A DNA stretch of 64,000 nucleotides from Gemmatimonadaceae bacterium. Its GTDB lineage: Bacteria > Gemmatimonadota > Gemmatimonadetes > Gemmatimonadales > Gemmatimonadaceae. Below, one piece after another: positions 3,053-9,996 of the stretch (within the stretch, counting starts at the first letter, position 1; each line of letters starts with the position of its first letter). The stretch is taken from assembly GCA_030647905.1 (NCBI GenBank), contig JAUSJA010000008.1:1-64000 (forward strand), in the 5' to 3' direction. The position numbers and the translations under genes were made by a program. The notes beneath the pieces are model-generated. The model ran no database searches. It was not told the DNA's origin and worked only from the letters and a program-made list of their open reading frames with translations.

Positions 3053-3880
3053 ATGAACATTTTATCGAGTCCGGACGTCAGCTCTGCCGTGATTCTCGCG
3101 CGCGGTCTCGGGACGAGAATGCGGAAACCGGATTCGGAAGCCGCCGTCGAATCGGCGCAGGCGGCGGTAGCCGATTCGGGAGTGAAGGGAATGATCCCCA
3201 TCGGGCGACCATTCCTGGACTACGTGATCAGCGCGCTTGCAGACGCCGGATACTCACGGGCCTGTCTCGTCATTGGTCCTGAGCACGAGGCCATCAGGGA
3301 GCATTACACTGTCGCGTCGCCACCCCGACGGGTCACGCTGCAATTCGCCGTGCAGGAAAAACCCCTCGGCACTGCCGACGCGGTCCTGGCCGCGGAGGAG
3401 TTCGCGGCAGGCGAGCCGTTCATCGTGCTCAACTCGGACAACTACTATCCGTTGGCGGCACTGCGCGCGCTTCGCGTGACGCGCCCGCCGGCACTCATCG
3501 CCTTCAGCGTGCGCGCACTGATCGAGATTGGGAACGTCTCGCCCGATCGTGCGCGTCGTTTCGGGTCATTGAATATCGGCGAGGACGGCATGCTCCGTCG
3601 CATCGTTGCGATCGGAGCCGCCGACGCGGCGTTCGATGAGGAGCCTTACGCCAGCATGAACTGCTGGTCGTTCACGCCCGCAATCTTCGAGGCGTGCCGT
3701 CGCGTGCCCGTGTCCGCGCGCGGCGAGTTCGAGCTGCCGCAGGCGGTTGCGCTCGGAATCCGTGAGCTCGGAATGCGGTTCACCGCAGTGCGAATGCGTG
3801 AAGCGGTTCTCGATCTTTCGACACGCGCAGACATCGCGGAAGTGCAGCAACGTTTGCGCGATACGTTTGTGGAAATCTGA
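3053..3880 (+). CDS. Nucleotidyltransferase (sugar-1-phosphate NTP transferase family)
   Basis: Transfers an NMP group to a phosphorylated sugar or similar acceptor. The 275-residue protein begins with the family's nucleotide-binding loop (AVILARGLGTRMR, residues 12-24), a variant of the usual 'AGGxGTR' in which Arg replaces a Gly. Then come GMIPIGRPFLDYVI (base and acceptor recognition), EKPLGTADAVLAAEEF and the metal-binding segment LNSDNYYPL (about residue 125). The left-handed helix domain common at the C-terminus of GlmU is absent, so this resembles stand-alone glucose-1-phosphate-type transferases. Substrate unknown. It ends just before the riboswitch candidate. Confidence 0.8.
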   Translation: MNILSSPDVSSAVILARGLGTRMRKPDSEAAVESAQAAVADSGVKGMIPIGRPFLDYVISALADAGYSRACLVIGPEHEAIREHYTVASPPRRVTLQFAVQEKPLGTADAVLAAEEFAAGEPFIVLNSDNYYPLAALRALRVTRPPALIAFSVRALIEIGNVSPDRARRFGSLNIGEDGMLRRIVAIGAADAAFDEEPYASMNCWSFTPAIFEACRRVPVSARGEFELPQAVALGIRELGMRFTAVRMREAVLDLSTRADIAEVQQRLRDTFVEI

Positions 3881-3907
3881 ACTGTGACAAAAAAGTCATA
3901 AAAAAAA

Positions 3908-3989
3908 GATTGAGCTCGGTCTCAACCGGTCGCGAGGCCGGTCCGCAAAGCCAAAGGGTCTCCTGGACAGGAGATAGCCTGGTTGTCGT
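3908..3989 (+). promoter_or_regulatory. c-di-GMP-I (GEMM) riboswitch candidate
   Basis: The RNA has the main GEMM-I marks in order: a helix closed by a GNRA tetraloop (ACCGGTC-GCGA-GGCCGGT, 3925-3942), the joining motif CCGCAAAGCC (3943-3952), then a second helix (TCTCCT/AGGAGA, about 3959-3973) flanked by GGGTC and GATAGCC-TGGTTGTCG, as in the tetraloop-receptor helix and closing strand. It lies about 50 bases before the SD of the secreted-protein gene at 4040. The related cAMP-GMP class cannot be excluded from sequence alone. Confidence 0.7.
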
Positions 3990-4020
3990 AAAGGTCGCCG
4001 GAAATTCCGGCAAACCTTTA
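3989..4020 (+). promoter_or_regulatory. Hairpin between riboswitch and gene (possible expression platform)
   Basis: A 7-bp outer stem TAAAGGT/ACCTTTA (3989-3995 with 4014-4020) encloses a 5-bp stem GCCGG/CCGGC (3997-4001 with 4007-4011). It overlaps the last base of the aptamer and ends 5 bases before the SD (AAGGAG, 4027-4032). No T tract follows, so translational control or transcript stability is more likely than termination. Confidence 0.45.
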
Positions 4021-4039
4021 TGTATCAAGGAGCACTGGC

Positions 4040-4486
4040 ATGAAGAAGGCAATTTTCCTCCCCGCGGTGGCGCTCTGCCTCACCCTGACGTTCGATCTCT
4101 ACGTCATTGGAACGTGGGACGGAGCTGGAATGCAGGGCTTCGGTGCAGACACCTGGCAGCTCGAAGTGAGCAAGGCCGGTGGAGCACGCGAGAACGTCTT
4201 CCACACGTCGTTCTCGAACCAGGCGACGAAGCCGCAGAATTATCCGAAGCAGGTTGATCAGGGCGGCACGAGCCCGAGCGGGCGTGGCGCGCTGGCGGTG
4301 AACACGCTTGGATATCCCAGGGCCATGAACAAGAACGACCTCGGCGACGCCATCTACCGCATGAGCTTCACGGTAGCAAATCCGGGATTGCGCGAACTGG
4401 TGTTCTCCTTTCACACCACCACGACGCTTCAGGGCGTCGGTGACGAGAGCTGGGGACTGGACAACGTCCTCGTAACTCTCAACTAG
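4040..4486 (+). CDS. Small secreted protein under riboswitch control
   Basis: 148 residues with a Sec signal-like start (MKKAIFLPAVALCLTLT) and no later membrane segment. The body (DLYVIGTWDG, TWQLEV, NTLGY, DESWGLDNVLVTL) matches what I recall of a beta-sandwich domain in PEP-CTERM-type exported proteins ending 'DE.WGLDNV.V'. The signal peptide runs straight into the middle of that domain and no C-terminal sorting segment follows, so the gene may have lost an internal piece. SD AAGGAG ends 7 bases before the ATG. It would be an extracellular or surface product tuned by c-di-GMP. It converges on trxC, 7 bases away. Confidence 0.75.
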   Translation: MKKAIFLPAVALCLTLTFDLYVIGTWDGAGMQGFGADTWQLEVSKAGGARENVFHTSFSNQATKPQNYPKQVDQGGTSPSGRGALAVNTLGYPRAMNKNDLGDAIYRMSFTVANPGLRELVFSFHTTTTLQGVGDESWGLDNVLVTLN

Positions 4487-4493
4487 GCAGCCG

Positions 4494-4994
4494 TCAGGCG
4501 AGTGACCGCGCGCGGTCGAGGAGCGATGCCAGCATCTGATATGGCATCGCTCCCGACTGACGCGAGGTTTCCTTTCCCCCGATGAAGACTATCGTGGTGG
4601 GGATCCCACGAATCTGGAACGACTCGGACGTGCGCGGCGCGAGGTCGGTGTTGAGCTTGGCGACGATCGCCTTTCCAGAATAGTTCGCCGCGAGCTGGTC
4701 AACGGCCGGCGCCATCATTTTGCAGGGGCCGCACCAGTCGGCATTGAAGTCCACGATCACGGGCACCTCGCTTTCCGCGATTGTCCTCGCGAAGCTCTCC
4801 TCATCGAGCACGATGGGACGGTCGAGGAGCATCGGCTTCCCGCATTTGCCGCACTTCGGCTTGTCCGCCGCCCGTGCGACGTCAATCCTGTTCCAGCTGC
4901 CACAGAACTGGCAGCGAAGAGTGGCTCTCGTTGACGGGTCGGTCCTGACAGTTGCGGCTTCCATCGGCGATTCTCCCGATTCTGTTAATTTCAC
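4494..4994 (-). CDS. trxC: Thioredoxin 2 (zinc-finger thioredoxin)
   Basis: Cytoplasmic disulfide reductase. The N-terminal zinc ribbon has two CxxC pairs (Cys28/31 and Cys48/51), followed by a thioredoxin fold with the active site WCGPC (residues 87-91), the preceding VIVDFNADW strand and the cis-Pro loop GIPTTIVF. Length (166 aa) and layout match TrxC. The start used here gives about 20 residues before the zinc ribbon. An internal Met at residue 11 is an alternative. A peroxiredoxin-like stub lies head to head on the other strand. Confidence 0.9.
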   Translation of the reverse strand: MKLTESGESPMEAATVRTDPSTRATLRCQFCGSWNRIDVARAADKPKCGKCGKPMLLDRPIVLDEESFARTIAESEVPVIVDFNADWCGPCKMMAPAVDQLAANYSGKAIVAKLNTDLAPRTSESFQIRGIPTTIVFIGGKETSRQSGAMPYQMLASLLDRARSLA

Positions 4995-5111: not shown

Positions 5112-5259
5112 ACAACCGATCCAGCTTTCAGACGGCCGTGGCGCTGGTCCTTGTGACTTGCGCGACGGCCGCTCGTCATTGTGGTGCATCGACAGGCTGA
5201 ACGAGCCCGCGTGGGAGAGATCAGCGCCCGGCTTTATTCACGTAATGATGAAGGAGTCT

Positions 5260-5766
5260 ATGCGCCTCATGTGCGCCAGCGCACCCAGCCGGCGGCGTCG
5301 CGGATTGAATCGCGCCTCCGGCTTCAGCATGCTCGAGATGTTGGTGGTCATGCTCATCATCGGCGTGCTTGTCGCGATCGGCGTTCCGAAGATTGGGCGC
5401 ATCATTCAGCACGAGCGTGTCAACCGCGCCGCACAGGTCCTCGTCCAGGACCTTCAGAACGGATTCGCCATGGCCGGCCGGCAGCGTGCCCCGGTGCGTC
5501 TGACGTTCACGCCTGACACGAAGACATACGTCCTCAGCGATCGGGCGACCGGAACAGTCCTCCAGACCCGGATCATGAGCCAGGGGTCCGAGTACTCGCT
5601 CACCGGAATGAGCTCTTACAACGCCTCCGGACAGCTGGCCAATACAGTAGACATTCTGCCCAACGGAATCGGATCCACAGAGTTCACGGTGACGCTGACG
5701 CTGAACGACTACTCACGTAAGGTCAGCGCGTCGAGTGCCGGCTTCGTCAGGATGACTCCACAGTAA
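5260..5766 (+). CDS. Prepilin, GspH/FimT-like minor pilin
   Basis: Pseudopilin with a class III signal: a basic leader (PSRRRRGLNRASG), cleavage G/FSMLEM with Glu at +5 of the mature chain, then the hydrophobic helix MLVVMLIIGVLVAIGVP. The C-terminal part is a beta-rich head of about 110 residues (RVNRAAQVLVQDLQNGFAMA...), as in GspH/FimT. Start chosen at ATG 5260 because GAAGGAG lies just before it. The in-frame ATG at 5269 has better SD spacing, and 5245 is also possible. First of four prepilin genes in a row. Confidence 0.85.
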   Translation: MRLMCASAPSRRRRGLNRASGFSMLEMLVVMLIIGVLVAIGVPKIGRIIQHERVNRAAQVLVQDLQNGFAMAGRQRAPVRLTFTPDTKTYVLSDRATGTVLQTRIMSQGSEYSLTGMSSYNASGQLANTVDILPNGIGSTEFTVTLTLNDYSRKVSASSAGFVRMTPQ

Positions 5767-5780
5767 AGGAGAGAACCATC

Positions 5781-6266
5781 ATGGTCGAATACTCTGCAGA
5801 GGCGGGTCCTCCCGTCGCCAGCGCCCCGGGCACCGGGTCTCCGGCCGAGCGCGGCATACGCGCTCGCCGGGGCGGGTTCATCCTCATGGAAGTCATCGTG
5901 GCGATGACGCTGCTCGCTCTCATCATGACCCCTCTCGCGGCGATGGTCTACAAGATCACCGCGCGGTCGCACCGGACCATCGGCAACACTTACCGGAACG
6001 GAGTCCTGATGCAGCAGGTGAACTTGCTCGAGGCGCTTCCCTATGACAGCCTGACCGTGGGCACCAGTACCACCACGATCACCGCGATGCCTTACCCGCA
6101 CACCACGACTGTCACCGTGGTGCAGTACTTCCAGAGATGGCAGCTGAAGGCCAAACGCGTCACGCTCATCATCACGCCGACCAATCCGCTCTACCGGCCG
6201 GATACGACGGAATTCATACGGTCCAGCGCGGCTACGAGGACGAGCTTCGTGGACGACGGCCAATGA
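5781..6266 (+). CDS. Prepilin, PilV/GspI-like
   Basis: 161 residues. The long leader (about 31 residues, rich in Gly/Pro/Arg) ends at RRGG/FILMEVIVAMTLLALIMTPLAAMVYK, a type III signal with the conserved Glu at +5. The mature head has alternating Thr/Val strands. The ATG at 5781 has AAAGGAGAG 14-6 bases before it. Its stop overlaps the start of the next gene. In type IV pili and type II secretion, PilV/GspI proteins form the tip complex with PilW/PilX (GspJ/GspK). The match is by architecture and order. Confidence 0.8.
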   Translation: MVEYSAEAGPPVASAPGTGSPAERGIRARRGGFILMEVIVAMTLLALIMTPLAAMVYKITARSHRTIGNTYRNGVLMQQVNLLEALPYDSLTVGTSTTTITAMPYPHTTTVTVVQYFQRWQLKAKRVTLIITPTNPLYRPDTTEFIRSSAATRTSFVDDGQ

Positions 6267-7123
6267 TGAGGTCCTTCACGGCTGGTCCGCGGAAAGGTCT
6301 CAGCATCGCCGAGCTCATCATCGGTATGGTCATCCTGGCGATAATCGGGCTGGCATTGACGAAAGTCCTCAGGTCGCAGGCGATGTATTTCGATCATCAG
6401 AAGACAAGCAATCTCGCGCGCAGCGTTGCGAGGGGACCGCTGAACCGCGTCGTCTCCGATATTCGAATGGTTGAAGCGCGTGGCGGCGTGATCACCGCAT
6501 CGGCTTCCGTGGTCGAGCTGCGCGTGCCGTATGCGATGGGCGTGGTGTGCGGGCCGGGACCGAACAACACCACGACGCACATCAGCCTTCTTCCGGTGGA
6601 TTCGGCCATGTTCTCCGCACCAGGCTACTCGGGATACGCGTGGCGGGGCGGGAATGGCGTGTACCGATACAGGGAGGACAACCAGACGAAGGACGTTGGA
6701 ACGTTGGATGTCTGCAACGCCAAACAGATCGGGACACTCACGTCCCAGGGCGCGAGGATAGTACAAATAACTCCCTTGCTTCCGGATACCGCCAGTATGG
6801 GCACTGCGGTGTTTCTCTACCGGAAAATCCGCTACTCGTTCGCGGCGTCCACGACCCTGCCCGGCTCGATCGGTCTCTTCCGCACGAGGATGGAAACCAA
6901 TCAGTCGGAGGAGTTGTCGGCGCCGTACGACGCTTCCGCCAGATTCAGGTTCTTCGTCGGCAGCAGCTTCACGGCACAGGATGCCCCGCCCGCCGATCTC
7001 TCCACGCTTCGGGGCATCGAGCTGAACATGACGGGGCTGAGCGAGCGCGCACCTTCCGGCGCCTCGCAGCCCCAGCGGGCGCCTTTCGTCACCGCAATCT
7101 TCTTCAAGAACCGTCTCGACTGA
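6263..7123 (+). CDS. Prepilin, PilW/GspJ-like
   Basis: 286 residues. Short leader with cleavage at RKG/LSIAELIIGMVILAIIGLALTKV, Glu at +5, then a large C-terminal head. Two consecutive ATGs (6263 and 6266) overlap the upstream stop (ATGA), which indicates coupling. The leader lacks the usual Phe at +1 (Leu instead). The larger head fits the PilW/GspJ position in the operon. Function inferred: minor pilin in initiation or tip assembly. Confidence 0.8.
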   Translation: MMRSFTAGPRKGLSIAELIIGMVILAIIGLALTKVLRSQAMYFDHQKTSNLARSVARGPLNRVVSDIRMVEARGGVITASASVVELRVPYAMGVVCGPGPNNTTTHISLLPVDSAMFSAPGYSGYAWRGGNGVYRYREDNQTKDVGTLDVCNAKQIGTLTSQGARIVQITPLLPDTASMGTAVFLYRKIRYSFAASTTLPGSIGLFRTRMETNQSEELSAPYDASARFRFFVGSSFTAQDAPPADLSTLRGIELNMTGLSERAPSGASQPQRAPFVTAIFFKNRLD

Positions 7124-7135
7124 ACGGAGACCTCA

Positions 7136-8209
7136 ATGTCACTGGAACAGCATAGAAAGGGTTTTGCGCTTCCGATGGCGATTCTCGTGATCGGCATTCT
7201 CTCGATCTCGATCGCCGCCGGCTTCACTCTCGTGAACTCCGAGCGCCGAGGCGTGGACGATCAGAAGGCGCAGGTCAGTGCATTCGTGCTCGCCGAGCAG
7301 GGGCTGGAGATATTCTTCGTCAAGCGTGATTCGCTGGGGTTCATCTCGAGGCCTCCCGCGGTGAAGGAAGGTCCAATCCGCATTTACATGAAGGGCGGGT
7401 ATGCCGATGTGCAGCTCGATCGCGTACGGCCGCCGACCGGCTCACTGGCCGGAGTCTTCGTCGTTCGATCGAAAGGCACGCAGACGCAGGGCGCCATTGG
7501 GGGCGCACCTGCCGGGGTGCGCACGGTGGCCCAGTACGCCGCGTGGGAGCCGGCATCCATGCAAGTGCTCGCCGGGTGGACCGCTATCAGCGGAATCATG
7601 AAGAAGGGTAACTCCGGCTCGTTCCTCGGTGTGGATGCCTGCGTTGTGTCGGACACCATCGCTGGAGTGGCAGTCCCGCAGGTTCCGGGATTCAATCAGC
7701 CGGGCACGACGGACAGCCTCGCATACCTTGCCGACAGCGCCAGGGCGGGCGCGGCAAGAGTTGAGATTGACTGGGCGGGCATTCTTGCTGGTACCGCGCT
7801 GACCCCCGACTACACCGTGCCGCCTGACGCCATTCCGTCTTTCGCCGACACGACATTCTATCCGACGATCCTCATGATGGGTACCGGCAACATCGGCAGC
7901 TCGTCGCTGAACGGCGGCCGGGGAACTCTCATCGTGCAGGGAAATCTCGACACCGGCAGCGGCGCGACATTCAACTGGAACGGAGTGGTTCTCGTCGGCG
8001 GGGACCTCACGGGAAACGGAAACAACTACATCAAGGGCGCGATCGTGAGCGCTCTCAACGTGAAGCTCGGCCAGACTGTACCGATCAATACCGTGAATGG
8101 AACGAAGCTGTACCAGTACAACTCGTGCGAGGTGGCGAAAGCACTGATGGGGCTTGGAGCGCTGGTGCCGCTGCCCAACACATGGGTGGATAACTGGGTG
8201 GAATACTGA
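7136..8209 (+). CDS. PilX/GspK-like pilus assembly protein
   Basis: 357 residues. It begins MSLEQHRKGFALPMAILVIGILSISIAAGF, a PilX-type N-terminus (Lys-Gly/Phe followed by a hydrophobic helix with Pro instead of Glu at +5, as GspK/PilX proteins often lack Glu5). The long Gly-rich C-terminus (GGRGTLIVQGNLDTGSG and similar turns) suggests a beta-solenoid-like exported domain. It sits 12 bases after the PilW-like gene and closes the operon. No pilus ATPase, platform protein or secretin is present nearby. Confidence 0.75.
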   Translation: MSLEQHRKGFALPMAILVIGILSISIAAGFTLVNSERRGVDDQKAQVSAFVLAEQGLEIFFVKRDSLGFISRPPAVKEGPIRIYMKGGYADVQLDRVRPPTGSLAGVFVVRSKGTQTQGAIGGAPAGVRTVAQYAAWEPASMQVLAGWTAISGIMKKGNSGSFLGVDACVVSDTIAGVAVPQVPGFNQPGTTDSLAYLADSARAGAARVEIDWAGILAGTALTPDYTVPPDAIPSFADTTFYPTILMMGTGNIGSSSLNGGRGTLIVQGNLDTGSGATFNWNGVVLVGGDLTGNGNNYIKGAIVSALNVKLGQTVPINTVNGTKLYQYNSCEVAKALMGLGALVPLPNTWVDNWVEY

Positions 8210-8441: not shown

Positions 8442-9671
8442 TCATCTTTCGCTTGACGCCGCGGGGCACGGCGCGGCCGCGACTGGAGGTGACCACTTCC
8501 GCGCGCAGTTCCTCGAGGATCGTGTACCGCGCGCGCCGCGCGCGCGTGGAAGTGCACCCAACGCCGCCTCGTGCATGAGCGCGCGGAGCGCGAAGTGCGC
8601 GAGCAGGAAGCCCCACGCCTCCTGCCGCACGAGCTCAGGGGTTTTGCTGCGGAGCACGCGCTGTCCGCCGCGCAGATGCGTCTTGAGCTCGTCGAACGCC
8701 GTTTCCATCTCCCACCGCTCATGGTAGAGCGTGGCCAGTTCGGCCGCGGGGGCGCGCGCGGGTGCCAGCACGGTGGTCACCAGCCGGTACGACGCGTGGG
8801 TCGTGGGCACACCGGGCAGCGTGTACTCGATGACGCGCACTGGCATCGGCGTCCGGTCGGGGCTCGTGCACTGACGATTCCAGCGCAACTCACTGCGATA
8901 CGACCCATCCGGGAACCGCTCCAGGACCGGCAGCGTGAACGTCACGCCGGCGCGCCAGAGGAGCGCCGCGCCCGTGGCAGACGCCTGGCGCCAGAGATCG
9001 AAGCTGAGCAGGCCACGATCGGCGAGACACAGCATCTCGCCCGTGAGGTGGGGCACCACGTCCGCCGCCATCGCGACTTCACTGGTGCGGTACGCCCCGA
9101 GTTGCGCCGCACAAATGGCATATGTCCCGTTCTCCAGCAGCCCCACGAGGCGCAGCTGCGGAAAGGCCCCGGTCGTGTTCGCCCCGCGCGCACTGGCCGG
9201 CCGCCCGAAGACGCGCGCATTCGCCGCCGTGTCCCCGACATCGAGCGTCGTCCCGTCCAGGCTCATCACCCGCCAGCCGCGGTACCAGGCGCCGGGCGTC
9301 CCCGTCGTGGCCACCGGGGCCACGACGGCGCGATACAAGGCTTCAAGCGGAGCCGCGCCGAGCCGGGTCCGCGCCTGCGAGATCCCCGACTTGCTGGGCA
9401 TCGTGGTCGCGGTCGGGTCGCCCAGCCAACGGGCTCCTTCCACGACGCACCGGAGCACCTCGCGCGTCGAGACGTCCGCGTAGAGCGCGAGCGCGATGGC
9501 GTAGTAAACCATGACATGCGCCGGCAGGTCGCGCTCGCGTTCACTCACGCGCTCCGTTTCAAACAACACCTGCTCGACCAGCTCCGCGGGGAATTGCGCC
9601 GTCAACACCCCAAGACTGATGTGATCGGCCAAGCGCATCCCTGCGGGCAACACAGCGGCGGTCCGAGCCAT
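8442..9671 (-). CDS. IS4-family DDE transposase (3' end frameshifted)
   Basis: 409-residue frame with the IS4 signature: first Asp in MSLDGTTLD, second Asp in LCLADRGLLSFD, and the YREK motif YHERWEMETAFDELK spaced Y-(2)-R-(3)-E-(6)-K. The C-terminus after ALMHEAAL turns into Arg/Ser-rich sequence unlike the family. The expected ending (VKRKMSNF...) is readable downstream in another reverse frame (about 8326-8530), with a short stretch in the third frame between. Two small indels near 8510-8575 probably inactivated or altered the protein. The catalytic core itself is intact. Confidence 0.85.
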   Translation of the reverse strand: MARTAAVLPAGMRLADHISLGVLTAQFPAELVEQVLFETERVSERERDLPAHVMVYYAIALALYADVSTREVLRCVVEGARWLGDPTATTMPSKSGISQARTRLGAAPLEALYRAVVAPVATTGTPGAWYRGWRVMSLDGTTLDVGDTAANARVFGRPASARGANTTGAFPQLRLVGLLENGTYAICAAQLGAYRTSEVAMAADVVPHLTGEMLCLADRGLLSFDLWRQASATGAALLWRAGVTFTLPVLERFPDGSYRSELRWNRQCTSPDRTPMPVRVIEYTLPGVPTTHASYRLVTTVLAPARAPAAELATLYHERWEMETAFDELKTHLRGGQRVLRSKTPELVRQEAWGFLLAHFALRALMHEAALGALPRARGARGTRSSRNCARKWSPPVAAAPCPAASSER

Positions 9672-9713
9672 GCAACCTCACGGTGGCGTCGAACCAATCT
9701 AGTCACTTACCAC

Positions 9714-9730
9714 TTAACTGAACAGTATTG
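9714..9730. repeat. IS right terminal inverted repeat
   Basis: TTAACTGAACAGTATTG, inverted match to 8317-8333, located about 45 bases upstream of the transposase start. Confidence 0.85.
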
Positions 9731-9737
9731 GCGGTAG

Positions 9738-9996
9738 CGGGCGAGTGCGGGCGCTGACGAGCCCGGGTTCGTCGCTCTCTGCAGAAAGATCGAGCGTGAC
9801 CGCAAGTTCCGTTGCTGAAGCTGCAAGGACTCCTGTACTTCACCCGCGAGACGCAGGAATGGCTCTTTACCGCTTCCACGACCTGTTGCTGCCGGGCGGT
9901 TTCCTCGTCTTAGGGAAAGTGGAGACGCTGCTCGGAAAATCGCGCGAAATGTTCGCGCCGGTGAGCTCCCGGGAGCGAGTCTTCCGCCGCCTGTAA
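9738..9996 (+). pseudogene. cheR: cheR remnant with the middle deleted
   Basis: CheR methylates receptor glutamates using SAM. Only its two ends survive. One frame reads DEPGFVALCRKIERDRKFRC (9756 onward), like a CheR N-terminus. The next pieces read LQGLLYFTRETQEWLF and then, one frame away, FHDLLLPGGFLVLGKVETLL and SSRERVFRRL, the classic CheR C-terminus. The SAM-binding core of roughly 170 residues is absent. The N-terminal frame meets a TAG right at the IS boundary. It sits 22 bases before cheB, its usual partner. Confidence 0.65.

Follow-up and report, generated by a model that had tools for sequence, protein, structure and literature searches.

A probably 5'-truncated and ligand-blind relative of the c-di-GMP-I riboswitch before an exported-protein gene in a Gemmatimonadaceae genome

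The leader at positions 3908-4039 of the DNA analysed here, a stretch of 64,000 nucleotides from a Gemmatimonadaceae bacterium that we call the window, belongs to a known riboswitch class as a relic or a derivative. It is probably a 5'-truncated, ligand-blind derivative of the c-di-GMP-I (GEMM-I) type, of the G20/A47/U92 subtype, with its 3' parts kept and its ligand-holding strands gone. Judged from sequence comparison, the leader has most likely decayed into a copy that no longer responds, and it stands before a shortened secreted-protein gene.

Family membership and architecture of the leader

A cmscan search of the whole window returned a sole c-di-GMP-I match, to RF01051 at 3908-3990 on the plus strand; its 36.9 bits (E 0.0014) lie just above the gathering score of 35. 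The covariance search thus bears out the GEMM-I origin proposed in an earlier sequence-only reading, yet the score derives wholly from 3926-3990. In a scan of the short stretch, the clan's best model for the element was RF03168 (c-di-GMP-I-UAU), at 40.7 bits against its own cut-off of 65.9. The leader folds with -61.4 kcal/mol (z -4.53), and none of 200 shuffles was equally stable. The element is real, beyond chance, and its kinship with the riboswitches that sense c-di-GMP is genuine. Its parts are arranged as follows.

3908-3925, plus strand: where the P1 5' strand and ligand-contacting J1/2 would lie, here unrelated sequence GATTGAGCTCGGTCTCAA (score and matrix tests)
3908-3927, minus strand: terminator-like hairpin GGTTGAG-ACCGAG-CTCAATC, then T8 (terminator scan)
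3926-3941, plus strand: P2 helix with GCGA tetraloop, identical in copy 2, a second element of this genome (Rfam alignment)
3942-3952, plus strand: joining region and conserved core UCCGCAAAGCC, with the A47 equivalent at 3947 (invariant among relatives)
3950-3985, plus strand: P3 helix, every model pair standard (RF01051 alignment without mispair marks)
3986, plus strand: C92 equivalent, U here and also in copy 2 (alignments)
3987-4022, plus strand: post-aptamer hairpin CGUAAAGGU...ACCUUUAUG, inner GCCGGA/UUCCGGC (folding)
4027-4032, plus strand: Shine-Dalgarno (SD) sequence AAGGAG (sequence)

The RF01051 core is present, comprising P2 with its GNRA loop, the GCAAAGCC core with A47, and P3. 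The sequence-only reading had recognized these parts: its GNRA-capped helix is P2 (CCGGUC-GCGA-GGCCGG, 3926-3941), its joint is CCGCAAAGCC (3943-3952), its second helix is P3 (GGGUC/GAUAGCC, 3956-3979), and its hairpin before the SD is that at 3987-4022, about 4 nt upstream. It had also rightly placed the element 5' of an exported-protein gene; the platform faces the ribosome site and carries no U-tract, and no plus-strand terminator, defined as hairpin plus U-tract, was found at 3987-4022. The hairpin of copy 2 is of similar build with other bases. At the position of C92, which pairs with a ligand guanine, the window has U (3986), and U92 is also seen among relatives whose 5' strand is intact. 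Of the RF03168 triad, A47 and U92 are present, and U20 appears only under gapless alignment.

The missing 5' strand

The c-di-GMP-I pocket is built by J1/2 together with C46-A47 and C92. DNA similarity between the window and copy 2 begins at 3926, the first P2 base, and extends to 3994, with 81% identity over 69 columns. When the 18 bases at 3908-3925 are cut away, the best Rfam score (RF03168) rises from 40.7 bits to 42.4. Copy 2, trimmed in the same way, falls from 44.7 to 32.4 bits in its best score, a loss of about 12, and its best clan member shifts from RF01051 to RF03167. A weight matrix covering the 14 bases that precede P2 was built from 54 relatives, each left out in turn for its own score, and all relatives reached at least 5.3 bits (median 14.0; copy 2, 11.5). 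The window scored -23.8 without gaps and -5.9 at best over 18 placements, where the 95th percentile of random 14-mers from the window was -7.7. The strand that should supply the J1/2 ligand contacts (G14-C22) therefore scores like random sequence, and G21-C22, retained in 69 of 71 elements, is absent from the window in gapless alignment. Because the pocket's 5' strand scores in this way, the earlier proposal that the element still senses its messenger is unsupported.

P1 itself is not recovered in the window. For the helix that the tail would form with the stretch where the 5' strand should lie, the predicted energy is -1.6 kcal/mol, against -3.5 to -12.0 in 25 subtype members, a comparison of little weight because the pairing in those members is not locus-specific. 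For the same reason, a claim of P1 covariation in the U92/CCGG subtype was dropped: complementarity exists, with -7.3 observed versus -7.45 across loci. In Vc2, loss of P1 abolishes c-di-GMP binding (PMC9262584).

These data bear on whether the element could still act as a c-di-GMP-I riboswitch, its 5' strand having diverged without losing function (G20, G21, U22, a 2-nt insertion and U92), and so govern how the exported protein is translated. The RF01051 score above the gathering score and the mispair-free alignment are consistent with such a switch, as are the GGDEF and EAL proteins encoded in the genome. Against truncation, RF01051 can also fit GGU to G20-G21-C22 with a 2-nt insertion. The strand nevertheless makes no contribution to the score and resembles random sequence beside the 54 relatives, A17/A18 and C22 are lost and the P1 partner is absent, and we regard a working switch as unlikely. 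Membership of c-di-GMP-I-UAU, with a U20/A47/U92 pocket and a changed ligand preference, would explain why RF03168 scores best and why gapless alignment gives U at both 20 and 92. The score is 25 bits under the family's gathering score, however, removal of the U20 strand raises it, and of the two U residues only U92 is shared with copy 2, which carries G20. This assignment is extremely improbable, and the U20/A47/U92 pocket was dropped because the strand that provides it adds no score.

A degenerate 5' strand might instead persist at about 3885-3898, separated from P2 by an inserted 27-nt block (A8 plus the hairpin that is terminator-like on the minus strand). There, GTGACAAAAAAGTCA is similar to CCGACAAAGGCA, and the weak candidate strand GACAAAAAAGTCA, 27 nt further up, scores 4.4, in the low tail of the relatives, with an estimated chance level of 0.05-0.26 (0.125 with the insertion). 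G21 would have become U, however, the match may be due to chance (0.125), and the aptamer would be interrupted all the same; we hold this arrangement to be very unlikely.

The replaced strand could also be a new cis-regulator, with GCUCGGUCUC (3914-3923) pairing with GAGcACUGGC over the ribosome site until a protein, an RNA or temperature opens it. This helix occurs in the minimum-energy fold of 3880-4045 and has a probability of 0.5-0.7 in two fold windows, but this falls to 0.05 once 15 further bases of the open reading frame (ORF) are included, and the duplex energy is no better than that of shuffles (p 0.107). A switch in which the 5' strand binds the SD was accordingly rejected, its energy being no better than that of shuffles and the helix being unstable across fold windows, and a cis-regulator of this kind seems improbable.

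On the minus strand, the terminator-like hairpin with its T8 coincides with the lost 5' strand; four terminator-like sites were found against 2.2 expected in shuffles, which is suggestive only. This hairpin (3908-3927) is antisense to the riboswitch and may mark the end of an antisense or a read-through thioredoxin transcript.

Downstream gene, genomic setting and proposed working

The element lies between two genes of opposite orientation, together with the gene that it precedes.

3053-3880, plus strand: nucleotidyltransferase (NTP_transferase), upstream neighbour (Pfam PF00483, E 8e-13)
4040-4486, plus strand: beta-rich exported protein of 148 aa, a paralogue of the copy-2 lipoprotein with a shortened N-terminus
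4494-4994, minus strand: convergent thioredoxin 2-type gene, parting the cassette from the pilin cluster (Pfam PF00085, PF21352)

The 148-aa protein shares 35-38% identity with the 276-aa copy-2 lipoprotein (38% over residues 5-145). Relative to that protein it lacks some 100 residues at the N-terminus, the lipobox among them, and a short signal-like start is joined directly to the FDLYVIGTWDG domain. This C-terminal domain is shared with a protein from Eisenbacteria and with one from Syntrophus that has a PEP-CTERM-like tail; a search upstream of these two homologues found no riboswitches. A sample of 179 genomes of the family yielded no orthologue of the copy-2 lipoprotein. The structure prediction for the 148-aa protein (mean pLDDT 48.8) was set aside.

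The leader begins within tens of bases of the nucleotidyltransferase stop, and a promoter scan found no sigma-70-like promoter between the two. Two congeners, G013 and G003, have no cassette at this place: their NTP-transferase and thioredoxin genes converge as direct neighbours, about 100 or 0 bases apart. The cassette was thus either gained here or lost there. The pilin-like cluster (5158-8209) begins on the far side of the thioredoxin gene, which runs the opposite way, and its genes are therefore not part of the cassette transcript. The chemotaxis region consists of an intact CheB next to a C-terminal CheR fragment and an IS4-type transposase, the latter two at 8442-9996. The sequence-only reading had joined the element to pilin and chemotaxis remnants in a motility-to-adhesion program, for which these surroundings give no support. 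Of that interpretation, family descent and the position before an exported-protein gene stand, while messenger sensing and the joint program are unsupported.

In our preferred reading, in which the aptamer was truncated, the 3' two-thirds (P2, the core, P3, the post-aptamer hairpin and the SD) would have been kept, and the P1 5' strand and J1/2 lost. The tail CGUAAAGG would then have no competitor, the hairpin at 3987-4022 would form by default, and the SD directly behind it would remain open. The leader would bind no cyclic dinucleotide, and the shortened protein would be translated without ligand control. Element and gene form a riboswitch-gene cassette, absent between the flanking genes of the two congeners.

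Several features speak against plain truncation, namely the full pairing of P2 and P3, a hairpin rebuilt with other bases and an open ORF. Retained helix pairs and a rebuilt hairpin suggest that the RNA is under some constraint and not simply rotting, and some remaining use is therefore possible, for example in mRNA stability or in exposure of the ribosome site. It is highly improbable that the scaffold, having lost its small-molecule pocket, now serves as another kind of RNA regulator whose new 5' strand pairs with the ribosome site.

Relatives, pocket subtypes and comparison with known systems

The genome holds three elements, in the window (36.9 bits), in copy 2 on contig C30 (44.7 bits) and at C8:118310 (70.9 bits), the last a canonical element before an M15-type peptidase gene. 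A search with RF03168 finds relatives in 67 of 99 related genomes, none above its cut-off. Of 298 genomes of the phylum, 151 have matches to a model, R1, built from 16 such elements including the window element and copy 2.

Pocket positions are numbered as in Vc2, with ligand contacts from PMC7288161. Among 71 elements tallied, 46 were G20/A47/C92, 15 A20/A47/C92 and 7 G20/A47/U92, with three other types represented once each; the window is one of these singletons, and L069 was counted as U92 on an ambiguous call. In several of the phylum's families, G20/A47/U92 elements with a near-identical P2, CCGGYCGCGAGGCCGG, precede lipoprotein genes (L002, L015, L195, L196, L206, L212). U92 could favour adenine in the ligand. 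A20/A47/C92 aptamers, which have the pocket of the Geobacter cGAMP riboswitches, precede STAS-motif genes (L010, L013, L017, L028, L177, L179, L181, L182, L185, L188), with Pfam STAS confirmed for L010, L013 and L028; L024 has a STAS neighbour but G20.

Canonical c-di-GMP-I elements precede M15-type peptidase genes (L001, L038, L040, L042, L044, L062, L065), and many genomes of the genus keep them. Their SD, GAGGAG, sits right in the tail sequence that P1 would use, an arrangement like that of an OFF switch. Two c-di-GMP-I-like elements (L026, L075) lie immediately upstream of a GspH-like pseudopilin gene, and others occur in tandem, 84-90 bases apart, at L234 (G384:C48 33394 and 33478) and at G424:C120 (10685 and 10775).

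Our comparison shows that an Rfam match above a curated threshold can turn out to be a riboswitch that lacks the strand for ligand binding. The intact and truncated elements of one genome, each with a paralogous gene, form a natural pair and a testbed for the regulation left after pocket loss. The pocket subtypes, G20/A47/U92 before lipoproteins and A20/A47/C92 before STAS genes, make their ligands directly testable. With their consistent gene neighbours, the U92 and A20 subtypes are likely to be more useful than the window element itself.

Compared with RF01051, the window shares the P2 GNRA loop, the core with A47, P3 and the site before an exported-protein gene, but it has no family-like J1/2 or P1 5' strand, bears U at 92 and lacks the canonical GGCUAA receptor in P3. 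With RF03168, its best-scoring Rfam model, it has U92 and a P3 of GGGUCUCC type in common, and differs in the shortfall from the gathering score and in having no matching 5' strand. The Geobacter 3',3'-cGAMP riboswitches (GEMM-Ib) belong to the same fold family, with A20 and C92, neither of which is shown in the window. Copy 2 (G000 C30:136686-136762, minus strand; L002) has the same P2, core, U92, post-aptamer hairpin, SD and paralogous exported protein; unlike the window, it keeps the 5' strand ACGAUAAGGGCACC and encodes the full 276-aa lipoprotein.
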